In this document: positions 4,101 to 63,234 of the stretch, in pieces | Layout: every line of letters begins with the position of its first letter | How positions within the stretch are numbered: position 1 is the stretch's first letter | DNA from: Bacteroidota bacterium | GTDB lineage: Bacteria > Bacteroidota > Bacteroidia > Palsa-948 | Assembly: GCA_016195025.1 (NCBI GenBank) | Contig: JACQAL010000016.1 | Coordinates: 1-64,000, forward strand | Direction: 5' to 3' | Length of the DNA: 64,000 nt | Notes under the pieces: model-generated | Database searches by the model: none | The model's input: the letters and a program-made list of their open reading frames with translations, nothing else | Told to the model about the DNA's origin: nothing | Made by a program: the position numbers and the translations under genes

Positions 4101-7100
4101 TTATCTCAACAGCGTTACAAACCCCTTCAGTTGTATTCCCTTCAAATCAAAAATATAAAAGTAAGTCCCTTCGGGAACACTCACGCCTGCGGAGGTTTTT
4201 CCATCCCAGCACGCGCCCGAATATTCAGAATAATACACAGGAATTCCCCAGCGGTTATAAATAGTAAGTTCCGCGCAGCCGGAAAATTTTCCTCCATCGG
4301 CTCCCGATATTTTCGGAATCAGGTTGAAGCAATCATTCATTCCATCGCCATTCGGTGTGAACACATTGGTGGTTTGAATGGAAACATAATTGGATAAATC
4401 TGAAACAGAAATGATTTTCTGCGCGGTATCGGGGCAGGGAGGATTCATAGCCGTAAGAATGATTATATAATTTGAATTATACACGAACGAATGAACAGGA
4501 TTCTGCTCCGAAGAAATAGTTCCATCGCCAAAATTCCAACTCCATGCCGCAGCATTCAAACTTGAATCGGCAAACTTCGCTTCCATTCCATCGCAGGCGA
4601 GTGAAAGCGTGTAAGCGAAATTTGCAACGGGAGTTATTCCAATCATAACCGAAACCGAGTCCACATTCACGCAGCCGTTTGCATCTGTTCCGGTTAATGT
4701 ATACGTTGTTTGAATAGTTGGCGCAACCGAAATTGAAGTTGCGGTGGCTCCGCTGCTCCACGAATAAATTATTCCTCCGCTGGCGGTGAGTGTTACCAAA
4801 CTTCCCGGGCAAAGCGTTTGATTTATTCCCGCGTTGATGTTCGGCAAAGCGTTCACCGTAAGTTGCACCGAGTCGGAATTAATGCAGCCGTTCGCGTTCG
4901 TAACAGTTACCGTATACGTGGCGCTGCTTGTTGGCGTAGCAACCGGGTTGGAAATGTTCGGATTGCTTAATCCGCTGGACGGGCTCCACAAATAATTTAT
5001 GCCGCCCGATGCATTCAGCAAAACCGAATCGCCCGCGCAGATTGCAGTATCATTCGAAGTATTTACAACAGGAAGCGCATTCACAAACACAGTGGCTGAA
5101 TCCATATTCGAACATCCGTTCGCATCGGTTCCAATCACCGTATAAGTGGAAGAAGAAGTGGGTGAAACTGAAATCGAAGTGGAGGTCTGCGTGGTGCTCC
5201 ACGAATATAAATTTCCTCCGCTGGCAGTGAGCGTGGTTGAATCTCCAACGCAAATCGAAACATCCGCTCCCGCAGAAATTATTGGAAGCGCATTCACAAA
5301 CACAGTTGCCGAATCAACATTCGAACATCCGTTTGCATCCGTTCCAATCACCGTGTACGTGGAAGAAGAAGTGGGCGCAACCGCATTCACAAACACAGTT
5401 GCCGAATCAGCATTCGAACATCCGTTTGCATCCGTTCCAATCACCGTGTACGTGGAAGAAGAAGTGGGCGCAATGGAAATGGAAGTGGAAGTTTGTGTGG
5501 TGCTCCATGAATATAAATTTCCTCCGCTGGCAGTGAGTGTTGTTGTATTTCCGAAGCAAATGGAAACATCCGCTCCCGCAGAAATTATTGGAAGCGCATT
5601 CACAAACACCGTTGCCGAATCAACATTCGAACATCCGTTTGCATCCGTTCCAATCACCGTGTACGTGGAAGAAGAAGTCGGAGAAATAGAAATGGAAGTG
5701 GACGTTTGCGTGGTGCTCCACGAATATAAATTTCCTCCGCTGGCGGTGAGCGTGGCAGTATTCCCTGAACAAATTGAAACATCCGCTCCGGCAGAAATAA
5801 CCGGAAGCGCATTCACAACTACAACTACCGTAGCCGTTCCGCTGCAGGTGAACGTGGATGCGGTAACAACATACGTTGTGGTGGCAGTGGGAGATGCTGT
5901 CGGGTTTGCAAGGGTAGAATTATTTAATCCGGTGGATGGATTCCACTGATACGTTGCTCCAACAGGCGCAGTGGGCGCACCGCCAATGGTAATGCTTGTT
6001 CCAATGCAAATGGAAACATTGGGTCCTGCATTGGTGGGAACAACCGGATTCAAAAAAACTGTCAGCGTATCCCAGTTCGCGCAGCCGTTTGCATCGGTAA
6101 TGTTCACCGTATACTGCGTAGTGATAGTTGGATTTGCAACGGGGTTGGAAATGTTCGGATTGCTCAGCGAAGAAGCAGGCGCCCAGTTATAGGTTACTCC
6201 GTTGCTTGCATTCAGCGTAACAGAAAATCCCGGGCACATCCATCCGGGTTTCGGTCCGGCATTGGCAAGCGGAAGAGGATTTACAAAAACTTTTACCGTG
6301 TCACTATTCGTGCAGGAGTTCGCATCGGTAATCATCACCGTATAATTGGTGGTGGAAGTGGGATTCGCAACGGGGTTGGAGCAAAGCGTGCACGATAAAC
6401 TTCCCGAAGGGCTCCACGAAAAGTTTCCGCTGCCTGTTGCATTCAGCGTGGAAGAATTTCCAATGCAAATGGAAACATCCGCTCCGGCATTCACCGCGGG
6501 CTTGGGTAAAACATTAACGGAAACAAAATCGGTGTCGGTGCAACTGTTCAGCGATACAACGAGCGTGTAAGTTGTGTTCACAGTCGGATTCGCAACCGGG
6601 TTTGAAATGGTTGAATTGTTTAAACTCCCCGAAGGCGACCAGTTATAGGTTCCTCCCCCGCTTCCGTTCAATGTTGTAGTAAAGCCGGGACAAACAGTTG
6701 CATCGGGTCCGGCATTTGCAACGGGCGGTTGATTCACAAATACTGTAACCACTGCGGTGTTGGTGCAGGTGGTTGGTGCGTTTACGTTCAGCGTATAGGT
6801 TGTAGTGGCGGTTGGATTCGCTATGGGATTTGCGCAAGTGGTGCACGATAATCCGGTGGAAGGACTCCAGTTATAGGTTGAACCGGCAGGACCTGTCGGA
6901 TTTCCTCCAAGCGTAATTGAATTGCCGTTGCATATAGTTTGATTCGCTCCGGCATTTACAACGGGAAGTTGATTCACCGTAACTGAAACCGTTCCCGTGC
7001 TGGTGCATCCTGCCGATGAAGTAACCGTAACGGTATAGTTTGTTGTCGAAGTCGGATTCGCAACGGGATTGGAAATATTCGGATTGCTCAATCCGTTGGA

Positions 7101-8717
7101 AGGGCTCCACGAATAAGTTCCTCCGCCCGTTGCATTGAGCGAAACCGAATTGCCGGTGCAGATGGTGGAATTTGCTGCGGCAGTAACCACAGGCGCGGGC
7201 TGAATGGAAACATTCAGGGAAATGGGACCGGCAGAACATCCGTGCGAGTTGTAAGAAGTAACTGAAATGGTTCCGTTGGGTCCGCTTCCCCACGTAACAT
7301 TCACGCTGCTTGTCCCCTGCCCCGATGTAATGCTTCCTCCGGAAACCGTCCATGAAAAAGAACTTCCGCTCGAAGCGGGCACGCTGTATGTTCCCGAGGT
7401 GTTCTGGCAAAGCGGATTGGGTCCACTGATGGAACTTGGTCCGTTGTAAGGCAAAACCTGTATGGTGTAAACCACATTGGTAACTTTTGGCGGGCATCCG
7501 TTATCGGGCGCCTGCACAATGAAAAAATAATTTCCCGCCTGCGTGCAGGCAATGTTCCAGCAGAAATTACTGGTAACGCTTCCGTTTCCTGCGGCAGGAT
7601 TGGGCGTTATGGTTGCCGGAGGATTGGTGGGCGGATTATTAAACAATGTTCCCGATGCACTGAAAAATACGCTGTCGCCATTGGCATCGTTGAAGGTGAT
7701 GGGAAAGCAGAGCGTATCTCCCACGTTCGCAATATAATTTGTCTGCCCTGTTGTGGGAGCAAGATTTGGCGCGCTGTTGGGCGGACAGTTCACCACAATG
7801 ATTTGCATATCGAGCCGCGTGATTCCCACCAACTGATTATTTCTAAACTCCTGCAGTTCCACCGCCACCACAAAATAGCCGGTTGTCGGGGAAAGATATT
7901 GCGACAAGCCGGTGAAGGCATTCACCGAAGCATAGCCGCCCGGACCAAATGGCTGAGAGGCGCTGTATCCGGCTGCATAGTTTACCAGCGGAATGGGAAA
8001 CGTATACGGATTAGGCGGAACGGGAACGGGATTGGTTTGCGATGCGTAGCCGTTGTAGGGCTGCACGAGGGAATATACAATCACATCTCCATCGGGGTCA
8101 ATGGCGGTGTTGAGAATGCTGGCAGTATCGTTCACGCATATATAAGGAACGGGGGGAAGCGCAAAGGTGGGCGAACTGTTGTTTACAAACGTGGGCGGAA
8201 CAAAACAATAATAGGTCTGCGCGGCAGCACCGGGGTTTGCAAGGTTGATGATGTTTCCGTTGCGGCAGCACCGCTCGAAAATGAGATGGTAGCCGCCATT
8301 GCTGGCGGGAAGTTCAATCACATCGGTATAAATTCCTTCTTCCACACACACCACCGGAGCGCTCACGCACTGCCCCGCTCCGGGCAGCGCCACCCAGTTT
8401 TGCGAAGTGAGCGGAATGGTGAAACTGTTTGCCAGAACTTTGTTGGGGTCGTTGGGATTGAGCCAGTCCTGAATGTATGCTCCAACATCTACATTCGGAT
8501 TAAGCGTTGCCGTGGTGCAGGTTCCGCAGGGAAGCGTCTGGTCATCGCAGTAGCGGTAAATTTTCAGCGTAACCTGATATTTATAGTTGCCCGTAGAAGA
8601 ATTCAGCCCCAGATATTGATAACCCGCCCAGCCGCCCATGAGATGTGTGGCAAAGGAAAGAGAAGTAAGAAGTAAGAAGTAAGAAGTAAGAAGTATTTTG
8701 ATGGAAATTAAGCGCAT
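4101..8717 (-). CDS. Giant Ig/PKD-like repeat surface protein with intact T9SS type B sorting domain
   Basis: 1538 residues. Signal peptide ~1-23 (LLTSYFLLLTSLSFA) followed by THLMGGWAGYQY. Residues ~25-420 form an N-terminal domain rich in Pro/Asn; ~430-510 is a PKD-like unit; ~510-1370 hold about a dozen repeats of ~70-80 residues with the pattern NAGADVSICxGNSxTLxASGG...W...TSSSTYTVIGTDANGC..DSATVFVN. A PKD domain (WSWNFGDGTISSEQNPVH) precedes the C-terminal sorting domain (FTPNGDGMNDCF ... NRWGIPVYYSEYSGACWDGK ... VTLLR). Role is inferred as a T9SS-exported surface adhesin or matrix protein. Two oddities are visible: a seven-base tandem repeat inside the signal-peptide codons, and a 93-bp tandem duplication that makes one incomplete Ig-like unit. 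No clear TAnnTTTG promoter is seen immediately upstream; a 21-bp repeat array lies there instead. Confidence 0.92.
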   Translation of the reverse strand: MRLISIKILLTSYFLLLTSLSFATHLMGGWAGYQYLGLNSSTGNYKYQVTLKIYRYCDDQTLPCGTCTTATLNPNVDVGAYIQDWLNPNDPNKVLANSFTIPLTSQNWVALPGAGQCVSAPVVCVEEGIYTDVIELPASNGGYHLIFERCCRNGNIINLANPGAAAQTYYCFVPPTFVNNSSPTFALPPVPYICVNDTASILNTAIDPDGDVIVYSLVQPYNGYASQTNPVPVPPNPYTFPIPLVNYAAGYSASQPFGPGGYASVNAFTGLSQYLSPTTGYFVVAVELQEFRNNQLVGITRLDMQIIVVNCPPNSAPNLAPTTGQTNYIANVGDTLCFPITFNDANGDSVFFSASGTLFNNPPTNPPATITPNPAAGNGSVTSNFCWNIACTQAGNYFFIVQAPDNGCPPKVTNVVYTIQVLPYNGPSSISGPNPLCQNTSGTYSVPASSGSSFSWTVSGGSITSGQGTSSVNVTWGSGPNGTISVTSYNSHGCSAGPISLNVSIQPAPVVTAAANSTICTGNSVSLNATGGGTYSWSPSNGLSNPNISNPVANPTSTTNYTVTVTSSAGCTSTGTVSVTVNQLPVVNAGANQTICNGNSITLGGNPTGPAGSTYNWSPSTGLSCTTCANPIANPTATTTYTLNVNAPTTCTNTAVVTVFVNQPPVANAGPDATVCPGFTTTLNGSGGGTYNWSPSGSLNNSTISNPVANPTVNTTYTLVVSLNSCTDTDFVSVNVLPKPAVNAGADVSICIGNSSTLNATGSGNFSWSPSGSLSCTLCSNPVANPTSTTNYTVMITDANSCTNSDTVKVFVNPLPLANAGPKPGWMCPGFSVTLNASNGVTYNWAPASSLSNPNISNPVANPTITTQYTVNITDANGCANWDTLTVFLNPVVPTNAGPNVSICIGTSITIGGAPTAPVGATYQWNPSTGLNNSTLANPTASPTATTTYVVTASTFTCSGTATVVVVVNALPVISAGADVSICSGNTATLTASGGNLYSWSTTQTSTSISISPTSSSTYTVIGTDANGCSNVDSATVFVNALPIISAGADVSICFGNTTTLTASGGNLYSWSTTQTSTSISIAPTSSSTYTVIGTDANGCSNADSATVFVNAVAPTSSSTYTVIGTDANGCSNVDSATVFVNALPIISAGADVSICVGDSTTLTASGGNLYSWSTTQTSTSISVSPTSSSTYTVIGTDANGCSNMDSATVFVNALPVVNTSNDTAICAGDSVLLNASGGINYLWSPSSGLSNPNISNPVATPTSSATYTVTVTNANGCINSDSVQLTVNALPNINAGINQTLCPGSLVTLTASGGIIYSWSSGATATSISVAPTIQTTYTLTGTDANGCVNVDSVSVMIGITPVANFAYTLSLACDGMEAKFADSSLNAAAWSWNFGDGTISSEQNPVHSFVYNSNYIIILTAMNPPCPDTAQKIISVSDLSNYVSIQTTNVFTPNGDGMNDCFNLIPKISGADGGKFSGCAELTIYNRWGIPVYYSEYSGACWDGKTSAGVSVPEGTYFYIFDLKGIQLKGFVTLLR
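5290..5475 (-). repeat. 93-bp tandem duplication inside the Ig-repeat gene
   Basis: Positions 5290-5382 and 5383-5475 are near-identical (only a few base differences, e.g. AATCAACATTC against AATCAGCATTC). The length is 31 codons, less than the ~75-residue domain period, so the second copy encodes only the back half of an Ig-like unit (VNAVAPTSSSTYTVIG joins a normal end to a partial repeat). It keeps frame. A recent unequal recombination is the simplest reading. Confidence 0.9.
8661..8695 (-). repeat. Five copies of heptanucleotide AGAAGTA in signal-peptide codons
   Basis: Plus-strand AGAAGTA occurs five times without interruption at 8661, 8668, 8675, 8682 and 8689. On the coding (minus) strand it encodes most of the hydrophobic core ILLTSYFLLLTS of the signal peptide. 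Since 7 is not a multiple of 3, gain or loss of one unit would shift the reading frame. Confidence 0.9.
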
Positions 8718-8802: not shown

Positions 8803-8970
8803 GAGATAATTATGTCTTTAATCTCTCCAATTGTTACCTTCAGATGTCCAATTGTGTCTTTCTTCTCTCGGATTGTTACCTTCAGAGGTCTGATGGTATC
8901 TTTCTTCTCTCCAATTGTTACCTTCAGAGGTCTGATTGTGTCTTTCATCTCTCGGATTGCATCTTTTTAT
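8803..8970. repeat. 21-bp tandem array 1 (eight units, alternating A/B forms)
   Basis: Eight units of exactly 21 bp. Two forms alternate, giving a 42-bp higher-order period: form A starts TCTCCRATTGTTACC and ends TTCAGA (8824, 8866, 8908); form B starts GGTCTGATTGTGTC and ends TTTCTTC (8845, 8887, 8929; degenerate at 8803). The last unit (8950) is degenerate. Because 21 is a multiple of 3 and the unit has no stop, frames are open on both strands: minus 8742-8948 gives 68 residues with heptads such as KDTIRPL KVTIGEK; plus 8790-9011 is also open. It starts ~35 bp beyond the stop codon of the 9005-10591 gene and ends ~85 bp before the start of the 4101-8717 gene. No Shine-Dalgarno or promoter is evident, so I treat it as a repeat rather than a proven gene. 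Confidence 0.85.
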
Positions 8971-9004: not shown

Positions 9005-10591
9005 TTATTGAATAATCAGTTTTCCTGTGGCAACCTCATTCCTATCTTTAGCAGCAATTTTATAAAAATAAATTCCTTTGGGCTCGTTGGAAATATCAAT
9101 GGTTGATGTTTGATGGTTAATGGTTGATGTAAATATTTTTTCTCCGAGAAGATTATAAATATTGATTGATGTATTTCCATTAGCCATTAGCCATTTTACA
9201 TTATCCATTTGTATTTGAAAAATGCCGGTGGAGGGGTTGGGGGAAACATACACAGAATTGTTTGCATGATTATTTTCATTTGTTCCCACTGTTAGACAAA
9301 GAGTAGTTTCAATACCTCCTGTGCTTACTTGTGTTGCTGGAGTTGTCGTTGTTCCTCCTGTATTTTGAATGCCTCCAGAACCTTGTATTCCTCCAGAGCT
9401 TAAAATTGTATTTGGATTGGTTTCATTACACCCACTATTTCCATTACTGTCAGTTTTGATTAAATAAATATCACCTGCGCCTTTTCCAAAACTTCCTGTA
9501 TAACCTGTAATAATAAATCCATCATTTGTTTGTTGCACAAAATTTCCTCTATCGCTACCTGTTCCTCCAAAAGTTTTTGACCATTGCAAAATACCAGAGG
9601 AAGTAGTCTTCACGAGATAAACATCAAGATATCCCGAGCCGAAACTCCTCGTTTCTCCAGCAATAATAAATCCACCATCATTAGTTTCCTCAACAGCGTA
9701 TCCACCTTCATCATTTGAAGATCCTCCAAAAATTTTAGTCCACTGTAAAGAACCATTTGAATCAGTCTTTATAAGATACATGTCTGAAATACCACCACCT
9801 GTAATGTAAGTTTCTCCTGTAATAATATATCCACCATCAATCGTTTGACGCCCTGAATATCCATAATCATCTCCTGTTCCTCCGAAAGTTTTTGTCCATT
9901 GTAATGTGCCATCAGAAGCGGTTTTAACTAGATAAACATCGACACTTCCGGCACCAAAACTTGATGTATAACCAGTAATAATAAATCCTCCATCATTTGT
10001 TTGTTGAACAGAATTTCCTTCACTACTACTAACTGTTCCACCATAAGTTTTTGACCATTGCATTGTTCCATCCGAATAAGTTTTTATCAGATATATATTT
10101 GGAACTTTTGCACCGAAACTATTTGTGAATCCAGTTAATATATAACCGCCATCATTAGTTTGCTGAACGAAAGAGGCGATATCATTCCCTTGTCCTCCAA
10201 AAGTTTTTGACCATTGTAAAGTACCATTTGAAGAAATCTTCAAAAGATAAACATCATCATTCCCTAAGCCGAAACCATTGGTGTAACCTGCAATAATATA
10301 TCCGCTGTCGTTAGTTTGTTGGACTGAATATGCTCTGTCATTATTTGTACTGCCAAAAGTTTTTGACCATTGCATAACGCCATCAGAGGTAGCTTTTACA
10401 AGGTAAATATCAAAATTCCCTTCCCCAAAACTTTCTGTTATGCCAGCAATAATAAATCCACCATCATTTGTTTGTACGGTGACATTTCCAATGTCATCCT
10501 TTGTTCCTCCATACGTTTTCTGGAAAGTAATTTGCGCGTTGCATACCTGAGAAAAGATAATTACAAGAAATATGTAAAAAAGTATTCTCAT
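9005..10591 (-). CDS. Secreted seven-bladed beta-propeller protein with T9SS type A sorting domain
   Basis: 528 residues. Signal peptide ~1-19 (FLVIIFSQVCNA). Residues ~25-375 contain seven repeats of ~48 residues, each with QQTNDGGYIITGYTxSFG, then DVYLVKTxSDGTLQWSKTFGGTGND; this suggests a seven-bladed propeller. A Gly/Thr linker at ~385-420 (GGIQGSGGIQNTGG) leads to the C-terminal type A sorting domain with VSPNPSTGIFQIQ and the terminal ATGKLIIQ. Role unknown; export to the surface by T9SS is expected. The sorting domain carries short in-frame repeat-derived stretches: WLMANG from doubled TGGCTAATGG and INHQTSTI from a motif resembling ATTAACCATCAAACATCAACC. It starts 24 bp after the stop of the 10616-12901 gene, so the two are probably co-transcribed. 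Confidence 0.9.
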   Translation of the reverse strand: MRILFYIFLVIIFSQVCNAQITFQKTYGGTKDDIGNVTVQTNDGGFIIAGITESFGEGNFDIYLVKATSDGVMQWSKTFGSTNNDRAYSVQQTNDSGYIIAGYTNGFGLGNDDVYLLKISSNGTLQWSKTFGGQGNDIASFVQQTNDGGYILTGFTNSFGAKVPNIYLIKTYSDGTMQWSKTYGGTVSSSEGNSVQQTNDGGFIITGYTSSFGAGSVDVYLVKTASDGTLQWTKTFGGTGDDYGYSGRQTIDGGYIITGETYITGGGISDMYLIKTDSNGSLQWTKIFGGSSNDEGGYAVEETNDGGFIIAGETRSFGSGYLDVYLVKTTSSGILQWSKTFGGTGSDRGNFVQQTNDGFIITGYTGSFGKGAGDIYLIKTDSNGNSGCNETNPNTILSSGGIQGSGGIQNTGGTTTTPATQVSTGGIETTLCLTVGTNENNHANNSVYVSPNPSTGIFQIQMDNVKWLMANGNTSINIYNLLGEKIFTSTINHQTSTIDISNEPKGIYFYKIAAKDRNEVATGKLIIQ

Positions 10592-41657: not shown

Positions 41658-44600
41658 TTACCGTATCAAATACATCTTTCCGTATCCCTGGGTAAAAAAT
41701 GAATCTGCGTTTGTATCGCGGTGCTCGAGTGCTTTTCCATCGAGTTGCGTCTGCAGACGGTAAAGATAAATTCCGTTGGCAAGCTGGTCACCAAATTCAT
41801 CTTTGCCGTCCCAGGCGTAATCGGTAATATTTCTTCCGATGTGCAGAAAGCCAAGTTCATATTTATTTAGTTCACGGATAATTTTTCCGGTGATGGTCAT
41901 AATCTGAATTTTAAAATAATCGGGAACCACCGAGCCGGTGAGCGTGAACACAAACCGCGTGGAAGTGGAAAACGGATTCGGATAATTCATCACGTTGGTA
42001 ACCGTTGGCTTGTTGATGACTTCAAAAGAAATTTTATACTCGCTGCTTCCGGATTTATTTCCGCTGCGGTCTTTCGCCTGAACTTTCAGTTCATAAATTC
42101 CATCGGGCAATGCGGGAGTATAATTTATTTTGCAACTGTTATTCGGAAGAACCGCAGAATAGAAAACCAAGTTGCTTCCGAAAGAAATCGTATCGTAGTT
42201 GTTACTGCCCGGCCGTTTTAAGCTCACATTAAATGCAGAAGGATCATTCAGCGCAAGAAAAGTGTTTTCATCTTTGAGTTTAATCAAAACATTCGGTTTT
42301 GCCGAAACAATATCTCCGTTCATGATGTGCACTCCATCAAATGTTACATCGAGCAGCGGATTTATTTTATCGGCATTTTCCAAGAACGGAATCGTTCCGA
42401 TATTATTAAAATGATATTGCTCCGGTTTGTGCTGGCTGTTGAACGGGTTTGATTCCACCCATAAACTGTTCAAGCCGGCAGGAATTGGCAGCGTAGAAAA
42501 TTTTACCTGCGGACTGAATACACTGTCAATTGCCAGCGGAGGAATTTTCACAGAGGGTTCTGAAATTTTATTGCGGCTGGCATCAAGCACCCAGAAATCA
42601 ACCCAGGTGCTGTCCATGTTATAATCGCCAATGTTTTCAATGGCAACGCTCATGCTGATGCTGTCTCCCTGCTGAACGGGCGAAGTGTAAAACGAATAAT
42701 GTTTCACCGGGTTCAATGAAAGTTCGGGAACGCCATCGTAGTAAACTCTCCAGTAAGTTAACTGGTCAGGCGTGCGCTTTGTGCTGTCTTTCACCCATGC
42801 GCGGAGTTCGAGATACGGAAAAGTATCCGCATTAATTTGCTGGCTGAGAGTAAAAATATCAGGTGAAGTTTTCAGAATATTTTTTATAAGTGTATCAGCG
42901 GTGCTGTTGTTTCTGATTCCGATGACAGAAATTTTTATGGAGTCCTGCGCAGGCGGAGATGGCGCGCGGTATCTCCAGTGCAGCGAATTCCATTTAGATG
43001 CAGGCCCGATAATTTCAGAATAAATATTTCCGCTTTCTCTTTTGAAAATAAGTGTGTCTTTGATAAAAACAGAAGTATCTGTGCTATTGATTCCAATTGC
43101 TTCCGCCACTATACCGCCTTTTCTTCCCACAAGAGCATAGGGAAGATTATTCTGAATGTTTGAAAATTGGGTTGCGCCTATAGATTGAAATGCCTGCACC
43201 AATCCGGGATTTGTTTTCGGACTGTTGCCGCCCAAAAGATCTCCGAGATTATGATTGCCGGAAGTGTATAAAATTATTTTATATCCTGCCGGCACCACAT
43301 TCAGTAAAAAGTTAGCCAGCGAATTCTGGTCGACAGCAGCGCTTGTAAGAAACTCATAGCGATTACAAGGACCAACTGAAGCGCTTCCATAAAATGGCTG
43401 GCCGCCCGGATTATACCATGCATCTCCGGTTAACGGGTCCATAACCGCAATCATCACATGTGGTATGGAAGCAAGAACATACGTACAGTAATTTGCCTGT
43501 ATTCCATCCACCAGCATATAACTGCAATTCGGGTATGGCCAATCAACCATATTTATTGGTTTCACTTCTATGGAATGAACCGAATAATCCAAATCAAAAT
43601 ATCTTTTTGGTTTGTTCGGAAGAATATATTTGTATTTATCTCCCTTCGTAAACTGGAAAAAATGCGATTGCCCCCAGCCGCGCTTGCCCGGCAAATATTC
43701 AAAGGAACTTTCGCGCCACGGATACGTTTGCAAATCCGGATCATTTCTCCGCACGCGCCAGAAATAAACGGAGGTATCTAATTTTGAAAACGGAGGCGAC
43801 CATTTATGAAAATCGGCTTTCACCACTGCGCCCGCCTGCGTTACATATTGTGTTCTTTTAATTGGACTGTTGAACGCATCGGTCGTATCCATTTCAAAAA
43901 TATATTGCGCAGATTTAGCAAACGGATTTGCCGTGTATGCTTTCAGCGTTACATAATCATTCGGAATAATGGCATAGGTGTAAGGATAAACCGGAATAAC
44001 ATCTCCCGAATAAATGAGCAGCGGCACCGCATTGTTGCCGGTCAGGTCATTGTTTGCGTATGCATTGTTTTCATCGGGATTATGAGCAGCATTCACGCGC
44101 ACTTCAAACTTATTCAAGCCGGGCCCTCTCAGCGGGTCAACGGGAAAAATAAATTTCACGGTGTCCCGGAAATAGAGAGGATGAATTTTTTTAGAAGTAT
44201 CCACCGAAGTTCCATCGGCAAAAATCCGTTTCAGTTCAACGGTAACGCTGTCATCGGTGGCTCTGCCGATATTGGTTACAATCACATTCGCAGTAAACGT
44301 GCTTATATCGGTGGAAACATACGATGGAGAAAAATAAACAGAAGTTGGGTCTACCGCATAATCGGGATACATGCTTGCATGAATTATAATTGCCGGGTCG
44401 CCATGCAAAGTAAGTCCAAGGCAGGTGGCATTGATGGACTCACTTCCACCGTTGCCCTCGATGCTGTCAATAGAATATTGAATGCATTTTCCGACTTCGC
44501 TGCCGTATAATTTGCGGCAGAAGTCATTGTAAAATTCCATGTTGAAGGTATGACTGTCCTGCGGAGTTGCGGGACCCGATGAAGCAAGAAAGGCAATCAT

Positions 44601-46742
44601 TCCTTTCGGATTAATCACGTACTGTTCGCTTAATGATGCGCCTTCCGATGGTGCAAGATGAATGTTTCCCGCATAGCAGCCCGTTGCGGAAAAAAACGGA
44701 TACTTTCCCTGGTGATTGTCGTAGTCCTCAGGCGGAAGAAGATTAAATTCCAGAATGGAAGAAGAAGAATGCCCGAAATAAGTAACGAGCGAAACCCCGT
44801 TGTTGATTAATCCGCGAATAGAATCGCTGTTGGAAGTTTGCGTGGGCGAAGAAGAATTTTTGCAGAAGCCGTGAACGTGCCCTCCGAAATAAATATTTTC
44901 AATAATGGGCTTGTAATCATTTTTCAACTCATTGCAAAATGTAAGTTGTTGCCCTGCATCTGCTCCTCCCGACATGTGAATCACTTCTTTGAACCATTCC
45001 TCGCGCGGGGCGTGTTCGTATTCATTCACCTTTGTTCGATACGTGTCCACATCAGCAATGCTTCTTGCCGCCAGCCGCCCGGTTGGAATGAGCGGCTTAA
45101 TTAAATTTCCGTTCAGCGAAGAAACAAGCATGTTGTCGCTGGCAGGATAAGCAATGGTAGGCACCAGGCAATTAGCATAGTTAGATAAATAATTTCCCCA
45201 ATCGGGGGGATTATACTGGTTGCGGCATTTATAATTCTCAATTGATTTTCCGATTAAGAAAAGTTCATGCGGCACGGAAGGAAAAGTATCCGCACAGTAT
45301 TTTGCAAAATGCCGGATGGCAAACGGATGCTTGGGAATTCCATAGGCAAACTGGTCATAGAGTTCCTCCATGTCGGCAAGCACCACATTACGCGAGCCGC
45401 CCTGCGCACTTGCACGGTAACTTTTATAACCAACAGCACCCGTGCTTCCGCTTCCCATTAAACTTTTATTAGTAACAATGATGAATGCCGAATCTGCCGC
45501 CTGCGAAAAATAATTGGTGAAATAGCCGCTGCTGTTCACGGGTTTGATTGAAGGAATCTTATAGTTACTGCTATTATCTGAAGTGAGCACGCAAAATTTT
45601 TCATCGGAAGAAATGGCTGGGCTTGGAATCAGAAATTCATACGAGCCCGAAACAACGGTTGCAGGAATTCTCAGGTTGTCAGTAAAATCATACAGGTAAA
45701 CCGAAGAACTCAGATTATTGAAACTTGTGAATGTAAAATTTGACTTTGCCTGAGTTGAATAAGGAACAAACATTTCGTAATAGGAAGCATTTCCAAGATT
45801 GGCGGTGTGCGGATATTTCAGCACAACATAGGGAACCGCCTGGTAAGTAGTGTTGACAATAGGCAAGGCATCAATTTTAATATCGGTGGATGCCCCGAAT
45901 TGAGAAGAGGGAATTGAAAAAGAAGAATCGTATAACTGGTATCCGTCAAACGCAGTGTCGGCAATAAGAATATATTGCGATAAATTGTTTTTATATTTTA
46001 TTTGCAAATGATGGTCGGGGAAATTGGCTTCATTATTCACTCCCATTACTGCAAGTTTCAGCAGCACGTTTTGCCCGGGATAAATATTGGAAGTATTGAA
46101 TGAAGAACTGAAACCGGGAGGAGGGTTGTTGCCATAGCCGAACTTATCTGCCGCCCATCCTTCCACCTCATCGTATTTCGGATAGGTTACATCATTGCTT
46201 CCTCGCTTGCCTGTATAATAATAAGAATGGTATTCATTTATTATTTCTTTCATGAAATAATTGCTCGCAGGATAAAAAGAAAAATTTGTATCGGAAGAAT
46301 CGGTAATTCGTTTATTAGTTGTGGAATTATTCCAGGTAAGAAAATACATGGAAGTATCGTTGAACAAACTATAATACGGGTTGGGCTGGCGCACCTTCAG
46401 GTTGTATAAATCGCCTTTGTAAAGAACCGAATCGAGCGAGCCGTCATTTTTTCTGCCGTAAAATTCTATGTAGTCATTTATATCGAAAGTATCGTTGTTG
46501 CCATTGTCCTTCACATAAATATATTGTTCCTGCCCTCTGAAAAAAATCTGGAACTTATGCAAATCAATATTCGAAACATTAATTACGGGGGAAAGCGTAG
46601 CGTAATCCAAACGGTAAATTCCGTTTTGCGCAACAGGGATTTTATAATACTGCTGCCCGTAATTTATCCATTCGTTCCAATGCTGCGCCAGGCAAAAAAC
46701 AGGAAAAGAGAAAAAGAGAAAAAAAGTAAACTGTTTTTTCAT
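41658..46742 (-). CDS. Gingipain-type C25 cysteine peptidase, PorU-like (probable T9SS sortase-related)
   Basis: 1694 residues from ATG 46740-46742, where the signal peptide MKKQFTFFLFFSFPVFCLAQ begins; a frame start at 46826 lies upstream of the TATCTTTA element at 46794-46801 and is unlikely. N-terminal beta domain ~20-420 (WINYGQQYYKIPVAQNGIY). The C25 caspase-like domain spans ~430-810, with catalytic His in LVTYFGHSSSS and Cys in FFSATGCYAGN. CARDB/Ig-like beta domains follow, then a FlgD-like module (NYPNPFSTSTRFVF) and the terminal QGYGKMYLIR. PorU is the T9SS sortase that cleaves sorting signals and attaches cargo; this long form with a PorV-like neighbour resembles what is called PorU2. 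Assignment as a sortase rather than a secreted protease is inferred. Confidence 0.8.
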   Translation of the reverse strand: MKKQFTFFLFFSFPVFCLAQHWNEWINYGQQYYKIPVAQNGIYRLDYATLSPVINVSNIDLHKFQIFFRGQEQYIYVKDNGNNDTFDINDYIEFYGRKNDGSLDSVLYKGDLYNLKVRQPNPYYSLFNDTSMYFLTWNNSTTNKRITDSSDTNFSFYPASNYFMKEIINEYHSYYYTGKRGSNDVTYPKYDEVEGWAADKFGYGNNPPPGFSSSFNTSNIYPGQNVLLKLAVMGVNNEANFPDHHLQIKYKNNLSQYILIADTAFDGYQLYDSSFSIPSSQFGASTDIKIDALPIVNTTYQAVPYVVLKYPHTANLGNASYYEMFVPYSTQAKSNFTFTSFNNLSSSVYLYDFTDNLRIPATVVSGSYEFLIPSPAISSDEKFCVLTSDNSSNYKIPSIKPVNSSGYFTNYFSQAADSAFIIVTNKSLMGSGSTGAVGYKSYRASAQGGSRNVVLADMEELYDQFAYGIPKHPFAIRHFAKYCADTFPSVPHELFLIGKSIENYKCRNQYNPPDWGNYLSNYANCLVPTIAYPASDNMLVSSLNGNLIKPLIPTGRLAARSIADVDTYRTKVNEYEHAPREEWFKEVIHMSGGADAGQQLTFCNELKNDYKPIIENIYFGGHVHGFCKNSSSPTQTSNSDSIRGLINNGVSLVTYFGHSSSSILEFNLLPPEDYDNHQGKYPFFSATGCYAGNIHLAPSEGASLSEQYVINPKGMIAFLASSGPATPQDSHTFNMEFYNDFCRKLYGSEVGKCIQYSIDSIEGNGGSESINATCLGLTLHGDPAIIIHASMYPDYAVDPTSVYFSPSYVSTDISTFTANVIVTNIGRATDDSVTVELKRIFADGTSVDTSKKIHPLYFRDTVKFIFPVDPLRGPGLNKFEVRVNAAHNPDENNAYANNDLTGNNAVPLLIYSGDVIPVYPYTYAIIPNDYVTLKAYTANPFAKSAQYIFEMDTTDAFNSPIKRTQYVTQAGAVVKADFHKWSPPFSKLDTSVYFWRVRRNDPDLQTYPWRESSFEYLPGKRGWGQSHFFQFTKGDKYKYILPNKPKRYFDLDYSVHSIEVKPINMVDWPYPNCSYMLVDGIQANYCTYVLASIPHVMIAVMDPLTGDAWYNPGGQPFYGSASVGPCNRYEFLTSAAVDQNSLANFLLNVVPAGYKIILYTSGNHNLGDLLGGNSPKTNPGLVQAFQSIGATQFSNIQNNLPYALVGRKGGIVAEAIGINSTDTSVFIKDTLIFKRESGNIYSEIIGPASKWNSLHWRYRAPSPPAQDSIKISVIGIRNNSTADTLIKNILKTSPDIFTLSQQINADTFPYLELRAWVKDSTKRTPDQLTYWRVYYDGVPELSLNPVKHYSFYTSPVQQGDSISMSVAIENIGDYNMDSTWVDFWVLDASRNKISEPSVKIPPLAIDSVFSPQVKFSTLPIPAGLNSLWVESNPFNSQHKPEQYHFNNIGTIPFLENADKINPLLDVTFDGVHIMNGDIVSAKPNVLIKLKDENTFLALNDPSAFNVSLKRPGSNNYDTISFGSNLVFYSAVLPNNSCKINYTPALPDGIYELKVQAKDRSGNKSGSSEYKISFEVINKPTVTNVMNYPNPFSTSTRFVFTLTGSVVPDYFKIQIMTITGKIIRELNKYELGFLHIGRNITDYAWDGKDEFGDQLANGIYLYRLQTQLDGKALEHRDTNADSFFTQGYGKMYLIR

Positions 46743-46830
46743 CGGTAAAATTCTAAACAAGCACTCAACGAGCCACTTCATCGAATATTGCTTTAAAGAT
46801 ACGAAATGTAATTCTTCTTTTAGCAAAATA

Positions 46831-46872: not shown

Positions 46873-47196
46873 TTATTGTATTATTAATTTCCCAGTTTCA
46901 AGAAGGGTTTGATTATTCCCGATGGCTATCGGGAGACAGATGGAAAACAGCCGTTCTTTACCAAAGCGCTGCAAGCGTCTGCCGAAACTGCGCAGGCGCA
47001 TTCCGAAAAGAGTACAGCGCATTCCCTTTTTAGTACTGCGCATGCCGAAAATAGTACAACGCATTTCTTTTTTAGTAATGCGCATGCCGGAAAGAGTACA
47101 GCGCATTTCCTTTTTAGTAATGCGCATGCCGAAAAGAGTACAGCGCATTCCCTTTTTAGTATTGCGCATTCCATGTTTCGTACTGCGCTGTTTCAT
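46873..47196 (-). pseudogene. Remnant of a T9SS type A sorting tail joined to a 21-bp repeat array
   Basis: The minus-strand frame of 107 codons first runs through the repeat array (heptads GMRNTKK, GMRCTLF, GMRITKK, EMRCTLS) and then ends RLFSICLPIAIGNNQTLLETGKLIIQ, written here in pieces: LPIAIG comes from a CCCGAT palindrome and TLLETGKLIIQ is the usual last strand of a T9SS type A sorting domain (compare EVATGKLIIQ in the 9005-10591 gene). The rest of a sorting domain is absent. I read it as a decayed 3' end of a secreted-protein gene next to an expanded repeat; a small translated protein cannot be excluded, but no promoter or ribosome site is evident. Confidence 0.5.
46917..46934. repeat. 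CCCGAT palindrome
   Basis: TCCCGATGGCTATCGGGA, an 18-bp palindrome with one mismatch. Same family as 63055-63074. Confidence 0.75.
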
Positions 47197-47200: not shown

Positions 47201-47447
47201 AAAAATCAAATTTTTCAACAATAACAATTAAAACCTAAAAACAATGCCCGGGCGTGAACAACAAGGGCAAAACGCTGTACCTATTTCTGCAATGGAATGA
47301 TTCTAAAAACCCGAACCGCATAGGTCCGGCAAACGCGTTGATTGCGATTGTGATTTGAGGAATGGCTGGAATAAAAAATCCCTTCTGCTCCTATGGAATA
47401 CGGAGTCCGTAACTTTATTCGGACAGATAATGCGGAAGGGATTTTTT
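47201..47447. other. Non-coding gap with a long branched hairpin (probable terminator of the PorV-like gene)
   Basis: At 47376-47444 AAATCCCTTCTGC pairs with GCGGAAGGGATTT (13 bp, one G-T), enclosing an inner hairpin GTCCG (47405) / CGGAC (47424). T-runs lie on both sides, so it could end transcription in either direction; on the minus strand it directly follows the PorV-like gene. From ~47250 to 47356 a short plus-strand frame (VNNKGKTLYLFLQWNDSKN, 33 codons from GTG) looks protein-like but is not recognised and may be a decayed gene fragment. Confidence 0.55.
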
Positions 47448-59620: not shown

Positions 59621-60280
59621 ATGAAAAAAATATTTTGGCTCTGCATCCCGATAAAATCGGGGCTCATATCATTTTTAATTTATAATTCTTCATTTATAAT
59701 TTCTGCACAGGGCACCTGGACTCAGAAAGCAAACTTTGGTGGAACAGCAAGATACTTGGCGGTTGGTTTTTCCATAGGAACAAAAGGATATATCGGAACA
59801 GGATATGATTACAGCGGTTCAAAACAGGATTTTTGGGAATGGGATCAGGTAACAAATACATGGACGCAGAAAATAAACTTTAGCGGAACAGCAAGAAATG
59901 ACGCTGTAGGTTTTTCCATCGGCTTAAAAGGGTATATAGGGACAGGCAGTACTTCTTCTGGTATGACAAAAGATTTTTGGGAATATTGTGACACTTGTAC
60001 TGGTGCGGGAGTAAATGAAATTGAAAATCAATTTTCCATTTCCGTTTTTCCAAATACATCAAACGGCAAGTTTACAGTTTCCTGTCTTCAGTTTCCGGTT
60101 AAGGAAATAATGATTTATAATTTATCAGGTAAACTTGTTTATCATGCAACTGTAAACAGCAAACAGGAAACCATAAACCTGAGCGCAGCGAGCGGAGTTT
60201 ATTTCTATCAACTCTCTTCCCCCTCTCCTGCAGGAGAGGGTCGGGGTGAGGTCGCAACAGGCAAACTCATTATTGAGTAA
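59621..60280 (+). CDS. Short kelch-repeat secreted protein with T9SS type A sorting domain
   Basis: 219 residues. Signal peptide region ~1-32 (IFWLCIPIKSGLISFLIYNS) contains CIPIKSG, derived from a CCCGATAAAATCGGG palindrome at 59647-59661. Two kelch-like units follow (WTQKANFGGTARYLAVGFSI, WTQKINFSGTARNDAVGFSI); typical relatives have six or seven units, so this looks like a contracted propeller that could not close on its own. Sorting domain: FSISVFPNTSNGKFTVS ... GVYFYQLSS ... ATGKLIIE. A G-rich mini-palindrome (60219-60252) adds PSPAGEGRGE in frame just before the terminal strand. 21-bp array 3 begins ~30 bp after the stop. Confidence 0.82.
   Translation: MKKIFWLCIPIKSGLISFLIYNSSFIISAQGTWTQKANFGGTARYLAVGFSIGTKGYIGTGYDYSGSKQDFWEWDQVTNTWTQKINFSGTARNDAVGFSIGLKGYIGTGSTSSGMTKDFWEYCDTCTGAGVNEIENQFSISVFPNTSNGKFTVSCLQFPVKEIMIYNLSGKLVYHATVNSKQETINLSAASGVYFYQLSSPSPAGEGRGEVATGKLIIE
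60219..60252. repeat. G-rich mini-palindrome inside the kelch-protein sorting domain
   Basis: CCCCCTCTCCTGCAGGAGAG followed by GGTCGGGGTGAGG. Same family as 31578-31599 and 60718-60757. Confidence 0.8.
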
Positions 60281-60313
60281 AAGATGGAAGCATTTAAACC
60301 TAAAGGAATAGCA

Positions 60314-60607
60314 TATACATCACCGCTCAATGTATATACATTATCTCTGCAGGTACATACATTGCGGTCTAATATACATACATCACGTTTCAAGATTGAT
60401 ACCTTGTCCTATGATATAGATACATCGCGCTTCAATGTAGATACATCACGCTTTAATATACATACCTCCCGCATCAAAGTTGATATCTTGCGCTCTGATG
60501 TAGATACATCGCTCTTCAAGGTAGATGCCTTGCACGCTAACATACATACATCACGCTTCGATGTACATACCTTATGCCTCAAGGTAGATACATCGCGGCT
60601 TAATGTG
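60314..60607. repeat. 21-bp tandem array 3 (fourteen units)
   Basis: Fourteen contiguous units of exactly 21 bp starting at 60314, 60335, 60356 and so on to 60587. Consensus starts GATACATCGCGCTTCAATGT and ends A; each unit can pair TACAT with ATGTA. Units differ at several positions but never in length. Both strands are open: plus 60284-60682 (132 codons, DTSRFNV heptads), minus 60409-60645 (78 codons, DVSTLKR heptads with Val and Leu in a/d-like spacing). It fills the gap between the kelch and BNR protein genes. No Shine-Dalgarno is evident for either frame, although the plus frame would overlap the next ATG by 4 bp (60679-60682). Confidence 0.9.
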
Positions 60608-60678
60608 TCATCATTTTCAGACGATTTAGTAATGAAACAAGACAAACAAGCAATATTTATTAATAATCATCCATTATC

Positions 60679-63234
60679 ATGAAAAAACTTTTATTCTTTT
60701 GTCTGGCAGCAATCATACTCCCCTCTCTTTCAGGAGAGGGGTTAGGGGGTGGGGTCTCGGCTCAACCCGCAACCTGGTCTCCCCGCGGCATCGGTGGCGG
60801 AGGCGCGCTGTTTTCGCCAAGCATTAATCCCGCCAACCCCAATGAATATTACATCGCCTGCGATATGAGCGAACTTTTTCACAGCACCGATTTCGGAAAA
60901 TCGTATTCTCAATTACACTTTTCGCAGTTTGTGGGCGGGCACAATTCAAAAGTTTGTTTTACTTCCACCGCAAATCTTTTGTACAGCATCAGTTATCCCG
61001 ACCCCGCGCAGGTGGGAATCCCCGTGAACAGTACGGACAACGGTGTAACATGGACTCCGCTCGCTGGAAATCCCGACCCGAGTTCAGATGTATGGACGCT
61101 CGATGTGGATTATAATAATTCCAATCGCGTCATCATTTCTTTTTACGCTGACATTTGGTTCTCAAGCAACGGAGGAACTACGTTCACAAAAATTCACACA
61201 GCAGCAAATTCAGGAAGCGGAAATGTTGTGGGCGGAGTTTTCTGGGATGGAAATAATATTTACATCGGCACAAATGATGGCGTTTTAATTTCTACCAATG
61301 GCGGAGGAAGCTGGAGCACGGCATCCATCACAGGAATTGCAAACGGTGACCAGATTTTTTCTTTCGCGGGCGCGAAGGTTGGCGTTACCACACGGTTTTT
61401 TTGCCTCACCGCCAACGCGGGAAATATTTATGTAGGCGTGCAGGGTTCTGACTACTGGGGATTTTACACAAGCGTTTATTCCTGTGATTACGGAAGCACG
61501 CAATGGGTGGCGAAGAACACGGGCATCACGCTCAACACCGATTACCCGATGTTCGTTGCGATGGCGCAGAATGATATTGCTACTGCTTACCTCGCGGGAA
61601 GCAACTCAAGCGGTTATCCGAATATTTTGAAAACAACAAACGCTAGCGCGAACTGGTCGCACGTTTTCAACACGAACAACAATCAAAATATTATTACCGG
61701 CTGGAGCGGATACCAGGGAGATAAAGATTGGAGCTGGGGAGAATGTCCGTTTGGAGTTTCGGTTTGTCCGCAAAATTCCAACTATGTAATTTTTGGCGAC
61801 TTTGGTTTCTGCCATAAAACTTCCAATGGAGGAACAACGTGGAAGCAGGCGTATGTTGACACAACGAATCAGCATCCGGCAAACGCGCCCACTCCGAAAA
61901 AAGCAAATTACAATTCCATCGGAATGGAAAACACAACTTGCTGGCAAGTGCATTGGGTGAACGCAAACACGATGTGGTCGTCTTATTCTGACATAGGAGG
62001 AATCCGTTCCACCGATGGAGGAAACAGTTGGTCGTTCAATTATTCCGGAATGACAGTGAACTCAACTTACAGAGTTGCGCAGGGAACGAACGGAACTTTG
62101 TATGCTGCTACTTCCGGCATTCACGATATGTACCAGAGCACGCGCTTAGCCGATGCGCAATTGGATGCCGCAGATGCAAGCGGAAAAATTTCTTACTCCA
62201 CGGATAATGGTTTAACGTGGACGCAGCTTCATTCATTCGGCCATCCGGTTTTCTGGATTGCACTCGACCCGAATAATTCCAACCGCGCCTATGCGAGCGT
62301 GATTCATTACGCAAGCGGAAGCGGAATTGGCGGAGTTTACATTTGCAATGACTTGAATAATCTTTCCACTTCCACCTGGACAAAACTTCCTGACCCACCG
62401 AACACAGAAAAACATCCCGCGTGTTTGGTTGTGCTCAAGGATGGAAAATTAGTTGCAACTTTTTCCGGCAGAAGAAATTCTTCGGGAACTTTTACTGCGA
62501 GTTCAGGTTGTTTTATCTATGACCCGGTCGCAAATTCCTGGACAAATGTTACCGACAACGGAATGAAATACTGGACAAAAGATATTGTGGTTGACCCGAA
62601 TGATGTAACGCAAAACACATGGTATGTTGGTGTCTTCAGCGGATGGGGAGGGCCTCCGAATGGTTTGGGCGGCTTGTACAAAACCACCAACCGCGGAACA
62701 TCGTGGACAAAACTTACGGGAACAACTCTTGACAGAGTAACTTCCTGCACCTTCAATCCAATGAACGCAAATGAAATTTATCTCACCACCGAAACGCAGG
62801 GATTGTGGATGAGCAGCAATATAAATTCTCCTTCTCCAACTTTCAGCAACGTTGCGAATTATCCTTTCAGACAACCGGAAAGAGTTTTCTTCAATCCTTC
62901 CAACACAAACGAAATGTGGGTTTCAAGTTTCGGAAACGGAATGAAAATGGGATTGATGAATCCGAATGGAGTTGCAGAGTTCAGCAATAACAATGAAGAA
63001 AGTTTTTTTGTTTATCCGAATCCTTCTAATGGAGCATTCGAAATTAAAAATGAAATCCCGATAGCTATCGGGATAAAAATTAAAAATGTGGAAGTGTACG
63101 ATGTGTTTGGAGAAAAAGTTTATTCTGAAAAAATTCTAAATACTAATTCCTTAATCCTGAATCTGGATTTATCGAATGGAATTTACTTTTTGAAAATCGG
63201 AAATTCGGTTAAGAAAATAGTAGTGCAAAAATAA
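60679..63234 (+). CDS. Secreted BNR/GH74-like beta-propeller protein with T9SS type A sorting domain
   Basis: 851 residues. Signal peptide 1-~33 is split by an in-frame mini-palindrome: MKKLLFFCLAAIILPSLSGE, then GLGGGVSAQ. The mature part starts WSPRGIGGGGALFSPSINPA, like the start of GH74 xyloglucanases, and has many Asp-box/BNR turns (STDNGVTW, SSNGGTTF, STNGGGSW, STDGGNSW, TTNRGTSW), so one or two seven-bladed propellers. GH74 catalytic Asp residues cannot be assigned with confidence. Sorting domain from FFVYPNPSNGAFEIKNE with palindrome-encoded IPIAIGIKIKN, ending IVVQK. Glycan binding or hydrolysis is a guess from fold. Confidence 0.85.
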   Translation: MKKLLFFCLAAIILPSLSGEGLGGGVSAQPATWSPRGIGGGGALFSPSINPANPNEYYIACDMSELFHSTDFGKSYSQLHFSQFVGGHNSKVCFTSTANLLYSISYPDPAQVGIPVNSTDNGVTWTPLAGNPDPSSDVWTLDVDYNNSNRVIISFYADIWFSSNGGTTFTKIHTAANSGSGNVVGGVFWDGNNIYIGTNDGVLISTNGGGSWSTASITGIANGDQIFSFAGAKVGVTTRFFCLTANAGNIYVGVQGSDYWGFYTSVYSCDYGSTQWVAKNTGITLNTDYPMFVAMAQNDIATAYLAGSNSSGYPNILKTTNASANWSHVFNTNNNQNIITGWSGYQGDKDWSWGECPFGVSVCPQNSNYVIFGDFGFCHKTSNGGTTWKQAYVDTTNQHPANAPTPKKANYNSIGMENTTCWQVHWVNANTMWSSYSDIGGIRSTDGGNSWSFNYSGMTVNSTYRVAQGTNGTLYAATSGIHDMYQSTRLADAQLDAADASGKISYSTDNGLTWTQLHSFGHPVFWIALDPNNSNRAYASVIHYASGSGIGGVYICNDLNNLSTSTWTKLPDPPNTEKHPACLVVLKDGKLVATFSGRRNSSGTFTASSGCFIYDPVANSWTNVTDNGMKYWTKDIVVDPNDVTQNTWYVGVFSGWGGPPNGLGGLYKTTNRGTSWTKLTGTTLDRVTSCTFNPMNANEIYLTTETQGLWMSSNINSPSPTFSNVANYPFRQPERVFFNPSNTNEMWVSSFGNGMKMGLMNPNGVAEFSNNNEESFFVYPNPSNGAFEIKNEIPIAIGIKIKNVEVYDVFGEKVYSEKILNTNSLILNLDLSNGIYFLKIGNSVKKIVVQK
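60718..60757. repeat. G-rich mini-palindrome inside signal-peptide codons
   Basis: CTCCCCTCTCTTTCAGGAGA followed by GGGGTTAGGGGGTGGGG. It encodes PSLSGEGLGGGV between the hydrophobic core and the cleavage region of the secreted propeller protein. Confidence 0.8.
63055..63074. repeat. Perfect 20-bp CCCGAT palindrome inside the sorting-domain codons
   Basis: ATCCCGATAGCTATCGGGAT, fully self-complementary, encoding IPIAIGI. Related palindromes at 30708-30733, 46917-46934 and 59647-59661. Confidence 0.85.

Follow-up and report, generated by a model that had tools for sequence, protein, structure and literature searches.

Why should intergenic tandem arrays that are unlike one another in sequence share a repeat unit of exactly 21 bp? 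The question is raised by three arrays, designated here A1, A2 and A3, in a 64,000-bp stretch of a Bacteroidota genome (contig C16, referred to below as the window). In an earlier note, made from the letters of the window, the three arrays were described as having an exact 21-bp unit, mutually unlike sequences and no indels between units, and the unit listings bear this out for all three arrays, in which no indels within units and no frame breaks are found. The count of 14 units given for the third array holds for 13 clean units, the first unit of the array being degenerate. Both strands had been called open, which is correct for A1 and A2, where each strand has one or more open frames; in A3 the best minus-strand frame contains one stop.

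Arrays A1, A2 and A3 in the window

The arrays and their neighbours are as follows (neighbours given for context are marked as such).

8803..8970, no strand: array A1, 8 units in A/B alternation with a 42-bp superperiod
9005..10591, minus strand: Por_Secre_tail protein ending in TGKLIIQ, neighbour of A1 (context)
41658..46826, minus strand: PorU-like C25 peptidase, neighbour of A2 (context)
46996..47188, no strand: array A2, 9 units in A/B alternation (ABAB) with a 42-bp superperiod
47251..47355, plus strand: remnant of a family-a orphan gene, C-terminus (residues 246-280), 63 bp from A2
59621..60280, plus strand: T9SS sorting domain (Por_Secre_tail) ending in TGKLIIE, neighbour of A3 (context, outside the module)
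60284..60682, plus strand: open frame of 132 aa through A3, compatible with chance
60331..60608, no strand: array A3, 13 clean 21-bp units; the degenerate 14th, which is the first unit, lies at 60310-60330
60679..63234, plus strand: Sortilin/BNR protein with Por_Secre_tail, neighbour of A3 (context)

The A3 unit approximates GTAGATACATCGCGCTTCAAT and contains the inverted repeat ATGTA-nn-TACAT. The frame at 60284..60682 shows no codon-phase signal and no Pfam family above the cut-off, and it is probably not a gene; an Rfam search of the window found no family. As the earlier note had it, the neighbours are T9SS-related (Por_Secre_tail proteins at A1 and A3, the PorU-like C25 peptidase at A2) and codons of the TGKLIIQ/E type are found within 40-120 bp of each array. 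The peptidase has homologues, mostly full-length, in 21 of the 21 related genomes searched. Between porU and A2, the minus strand at 46873-46910 encodes ETGKLIIQY in the absence of a plausible full gene, a possible remnant of a T9SS sorting domain. Tandem repeats of another kind occur inside large genes of the window, with units of 213-306 bp at 5076-5818, where the gene encodes many Ig_7/PKD-type domains, and of 228-231 bp at 1984-2840.

Period 21 in the host genome

The genome comprises 3.5 Mb in 79 contigs, and the census was taken from 840 kb of it in forty stretches, 4 of which were chosen for array matches, so that array density is overestimated and the period spectrum is unaffected. In 445 kb, TRF reported 24 rows at period 21 and at most 5 at any period other than 21 and its multiples. 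Alignment-free autocorrelation of the 840 kb detected 26, 24, 26 and 21 regions at lags of 21, 42, 63 and 84, respectively, and at most 10 at any other lag except 7, and locally shuffled DNA gave no region in the 445-kb scan under stricter thresholds. About 20 separate arrays are contained in the 840 kb. The earlier note had suggested a tandem-repeat scan as a check and would have put the arrays down to chance if no excess appeared at 21; since 21 and its multiples dominate both the TRF and the lag scans, chance fails as an explanation, and the 21-bp arrays are a real and general pattern. No 10-11 bp sub-periodicity and no phased tracts were detected within the arrays.

Do the arrays mark, or derive from, genes encoding T9SS sorting domains? 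Using a profile grown from the sorting domains of the window, we found CTD genes next to 11 of 18 gaps holding an array in this genome, versus 37 of 153 other gaps (odds ratio ~5, p about 0.002-0.003), a result stable to gap length; the gaps with arrays are long and over-represented next to T9SS genes. TGKLII codons near all three window arrays point the same way, but the motif is found near 0 of 19 other arrays and was rejected as a general array marker, the preference for the C-terminal side of CTD genes is not significant (p 0.23), and elsewhere the arrays go with orphan genes. The T9SS link proposed in the earlier note is thus retained as a moderate local enrichment that does not define the arrays, and it is highly improbable that the arrays mark or derive from sorting-domain genes.

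Orphan genes adjoining the arrays

A pattern stronger than the T9SS link, phylum-wide and absent from the earlier note, is the linkage of the arrays to orphan genes. The arrays repeatedly adjoin genes of 230-300 aa that show no signal-peptide features and, with few exceptions, belong to no Pfam or NCBIfam family. The encoded proteins fall into several families, labelled here a, b, c and d, whose unclassified N-terminal domain is predicted to be helical (from its composition and a single-sequence model of low confidence) and whose C-terminal domain is often fn3-like (families b and c, called from PDB profile matches to fibronectin-type domains) or CarboxypepD_reg-like (family d). A single-sequence AlphaFold2 model of one neighbour protein reached a pLDDT of 39, too low to use. 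No recognised DNA-binding domain was detected among the family proteins scanned, and the proteins tried against viral contigs, phages and plasmids gave no match that would indicate a phage or plasmid origin.

Searches with four array-bearing query genes in this genome and six others of the genus showed a period-21 array within 600 bp of 53 of 65 family genes, the queries having been picked for their arrays and their relatives not so picked; control periods were found at 1-2 genes, with a maximum of 7 (period 14). In other families and classes of Bacteroidota, with members defined as proteins matching the N-terminal region, 31 of 37 genes carry a period-21 array, 30 of them on the 5' side (controls, at most 4). 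When the flanks were scanned at all periods from 15 to 60, the dominant period was 21 or 42 in 51/51 loci of the genus in which a repeat was clear and in 27/32 loci elsewhere, the exceptions including 41 (twice) and 20 (once). The arrays consist of head-to-tail units (median 11, range 4-21) and lie at a median of 91 bp from the ATG, typically 15-215 bp and in many cases 5-50 bp, with no enrichment of the Bacteroidetes-type promoter motif between array and ATG. A 3' position relative to the gene is seen for the family-b arrays of this species and for the nearest family-d arrays. We conclude that a 21-bp (rarely 20- or 41-bp) array, mostly 5' of an orphan-family gene, is a recurrent chromosomal arrangement in Bacteroidota.

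Three other uncharacterised genes beside 21-bp arrays (L145:3496-4518, L105:16946-17446 and L124:8437-9399) lack a credible match in Pfam or NCBIfam and are missed by our family profiles, apart from a weak match of L124; they probably represent more families of the same arrangement, and the family list is probably incomplete. Upstream of one fn3-type family gene, L266:868-1171 (given in the sense orientation) holds a near-perfect array of 41-bp period with 93% identity, 41 being a multiple of neither 3 nor 21.

In the window itself, A2 is an array beside a decayed family-a gene, as judged by sequence comparison, because 47251-47355 encodes family-a residues 246-280 at 86% identity to the gene on contig C70 (E 1.6e-13 and 3.5e-15); relatives of A2 are found at C13:20462-20678 and C70:520-759. 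A3 is related to an array on contig C2 (E 8e-13) and weakly to one on contig C34. The C2 array resembles the C34 array, which immediately follows an intact family-b gene on its 3' side, and WSNTVAFIPQ can be read in the DNA near the C2 array where the C34 gene has the C-terminus WSNTVSFIPQ; through this chain of likenesses A3 may have lost the gene that it once accompanied. For A1, no relative was found, and no family gene or remnant nearby; neither A1 nor A3 has a recognisable family gene. The description of the arrays as unrelated in sequence therefore holds among the three of the window and not for the genome, where A2 and A3 have relatives.

Among the 101 arrays collected from all loci, 15 of 5,050 pairs are alike in sequence. 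The paralogues L190, L194 and L198 encode proteins 76-81% identical and each has its own 21-bp array; by blastn they are homologous over the gene and at short spots outside it, and not over the arrays. In other Bacteroidetes MAGs a second set of arrays directly follows porU on its 3' side, with no gene of families a to d detected nearby.

L138:15083-15455: array 3' of porU, 16 units
L146:10442-10793: the same array, 15 units
L149:8866-9029: the same array, 6 units
L142:15140-15303: the same array, 6 units
L139:15090-15350: a 21-bp array of completely different sequence, flanked by the same gene pair

Array length thus changes by whole units and the sequence is replaced wholesale between paralogues, while the spacing is kept. 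Conservation of the period without conservation of the sequence, on which the earlier note had rested its case, is confirmed at this larger scale, including replacement at the same sites.

Changes by whole units are also what non-functional minisatellites would display, arising by local duplication (slippage or unequal crossing-over) that favours 21-bp steps where multicopy orphan genes accumulate in fast-evolving neighbourhoods. Lone arrays and gene remnants, the long array gaps with their enrichment beside T9SS genes, and the promoter motif that is not enriched all agree with such an origin. Generic minisatellites, however, vary in period, whereas nearly all repeats detected here are 21/42 across classes; the strong gene linkage with its preferred 5' side and the non-random dyads described below also speak against it. 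We regard a purely mutational origin as a serious alternative that is nonetheless rather unlikely; were it correct, the arrays would bring to light a mechanism that duplicates DNA in fixed steps of two turns.

Possible readings and known repeat systems

The first option of the earlier note was selection on encoded heptads, that is, small coiled-coil-like proteins. A unit of 21 bp is divisible by 3, and there is a slight excess of arrays with at least one open frame (79% versus 65% in column-permuted controls), but the excess is equal on both strands, the units do not vary with a period of three (Stouffer -1.7 for 22 arrays and -3.8 for 101 arrays), and no heptad is common to different arrays. 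Because codon-phase signal is lacking and periods of 20 or 41, which would break the frame, occur in related loci, encoded heptads are very unlikely. When the dominant period shifts, it goes to 20 or 41 and not, as a rule, to 18 or 24, so that two helical turns fit better than codons.

In most array types the units are dyadic. With the 21 columns permuted alike in all units as a control, self-complementarity gave Stouffer values of 4.7, 8.1 and 8.2 for arrays of families a, b and c, 4.2 for unassigned arrays and -0.9 for family d. Compensatory covariation of the dyad arms was sought unit by unit and rejected (0.09 +/- 0.17). The arrays also fold more stably than column-permuted controls, a test weaker than the dyad test since column permutation alters neighbouring-base frequencies.

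Folding of this kind would be expected if the array were part of the gene's transcript, as leader or trailer, and formed serial hairpins or binding sites in the mRNA. The position of the arrays, close to the gene and mostly 5', agrees with an RNA-level element, as does the lack of promoter-motif enrichment between array and gene. The folding excess, however, is alike on both strands and even larger on the antisense strand, family-d arrays fold no better than controls, helical spacing is not needed for RNA, and some arrays (those of family b in this species and the nearest ones of family d) are on the 3' side of their genes. An RNA-level element is therefore unlikely.

The best reading, to which we give slightly less than an even chance, is a protein-binding scaffold of two helical turns per site, linked to the neighbouring gene. 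The array would act as DNA, presenting a site every two turns, and a protein, either the product of the neighbouring gene or a general chromatin-type protein, would assemble along one face of the DNA, probably as a dimer where the units are dyadic; the assembled protein might then regulate, mark or hold the locus. In favour of a scaffold are the dominance of 21/42, the gene linkage (53/65 in the genus; 31/37 elsewhere, 30 of them 5'), the turnover of sequence at constant spacing, the dyads in families a, b and c, the lack of codon phase and the remnant beside A2. Against it stand the family proteins without a recognised DNA-binding domain, dyad arms without covariation, family d without dyads, arrays without 10-11 bp sub-periodicity, the promoter motif that is not enriched, and the arrays without a gene (A1, A3 and the porU site). 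Linkage of gene and array does not prove functional interaction, and the correspondence between array symmetry and protein family, which would suit a neighbour protein acting as reader, is a correlation only.

Going one step beyond the scaffold, we tentatively propose a phylum-wide two-part module, a proposal that we would sooner doubt than accept: an orphan protein with a helical domain would be paired with a private, fast-replaced array of two-turn sites, read by that protein or a partner, and protein and array would co-evolve like reader and address, the symmetry class of the array following the protein family.

Plasmid iterons are direct repeats of ~17-22 bp bound by Rep proteins, and in anatomy they come closest to the arrays: both are head-to-tail, span about two helical turns, lie beside a gene and vary in sequence (between replicons, in the case of iterons), and the repeat length is found here as well. 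Iterons are nevertheless set apart because neither an initiator gene nor a plasmid setting is found: the neighbouring genes have no replication-initiator domain, the arrays are chromosomal, dispersed over many long MAG contigs with many different ones per genome, and two family proteins searched against 72,556 plasmids gave no match. VNTRs or minisatellites (MLVA loci) resemble the arrays as intergenic head-to-tail repeats that change by whole units (16, 15, 6 and 6 at the porU site) and differ from them in that the arrays have one period phylum-wide, fixed partner genes and dyadic units. REP, BIME and REPIN elements are likewise intergenic, palindromic and numerous in a genome, but the arrays have no common sequence family (15/5,050 alike), their 21-bp spacing is strictly tandem, and no RAYT-type partner was found beside them. 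CRISPR loci also place regular repeats beside dedicated genes; the units here, in contrast, are contiguous and without spacers, no defence-type domain was recognised in the families scanned, and no cas family was found among the neighbours scanned, which cover part of the array flanks. At the ptx promoter, BvgA~P binds a multi-site operator array cooperatively on one face of the DNA (PMC7250471). Such operator arrays, like ours, lie upstream of a gene and repeat their sites in phase with the helix, but here there are up to 21 near-equal units and no motif common to the loci. The period is that expected of a scaffold, following two turns rather than codons, with 21/42 dominant and 20 and 41 as exceptions.

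A search of the open-access literature, limited in that most subscription journals were outside its scope, found no description of such arrays. The arrangement, whose function is at most putative, appears to be new; iterons, CRISPR, REP elements and ordinary VNTRs each depart from it in a tested feature. Known repeat classes do not explain a feature defined by spacing alone, which is kept over several classes while the sequence is discarded. For widespread unannotated proteins outside Pfam and NCBIfam, the arrays also supply a first clue from genomic context, and they raise a testable question: what reads a 21-bp rhythm whatever the sequence?

The second commonest repeat class in the 840 kb consists of period-7 runs (35 regions), which are short and mostly AT-rich, with 4-9 units such as TTGATGG, AGAAGTA or CGCTGGT. 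Examples are found at 8661-8695 and 9099-9129 of the window, L040:430-556 and L060:15326-15442; some lie near 21-bp arrays, and 21 = 3 x 7.
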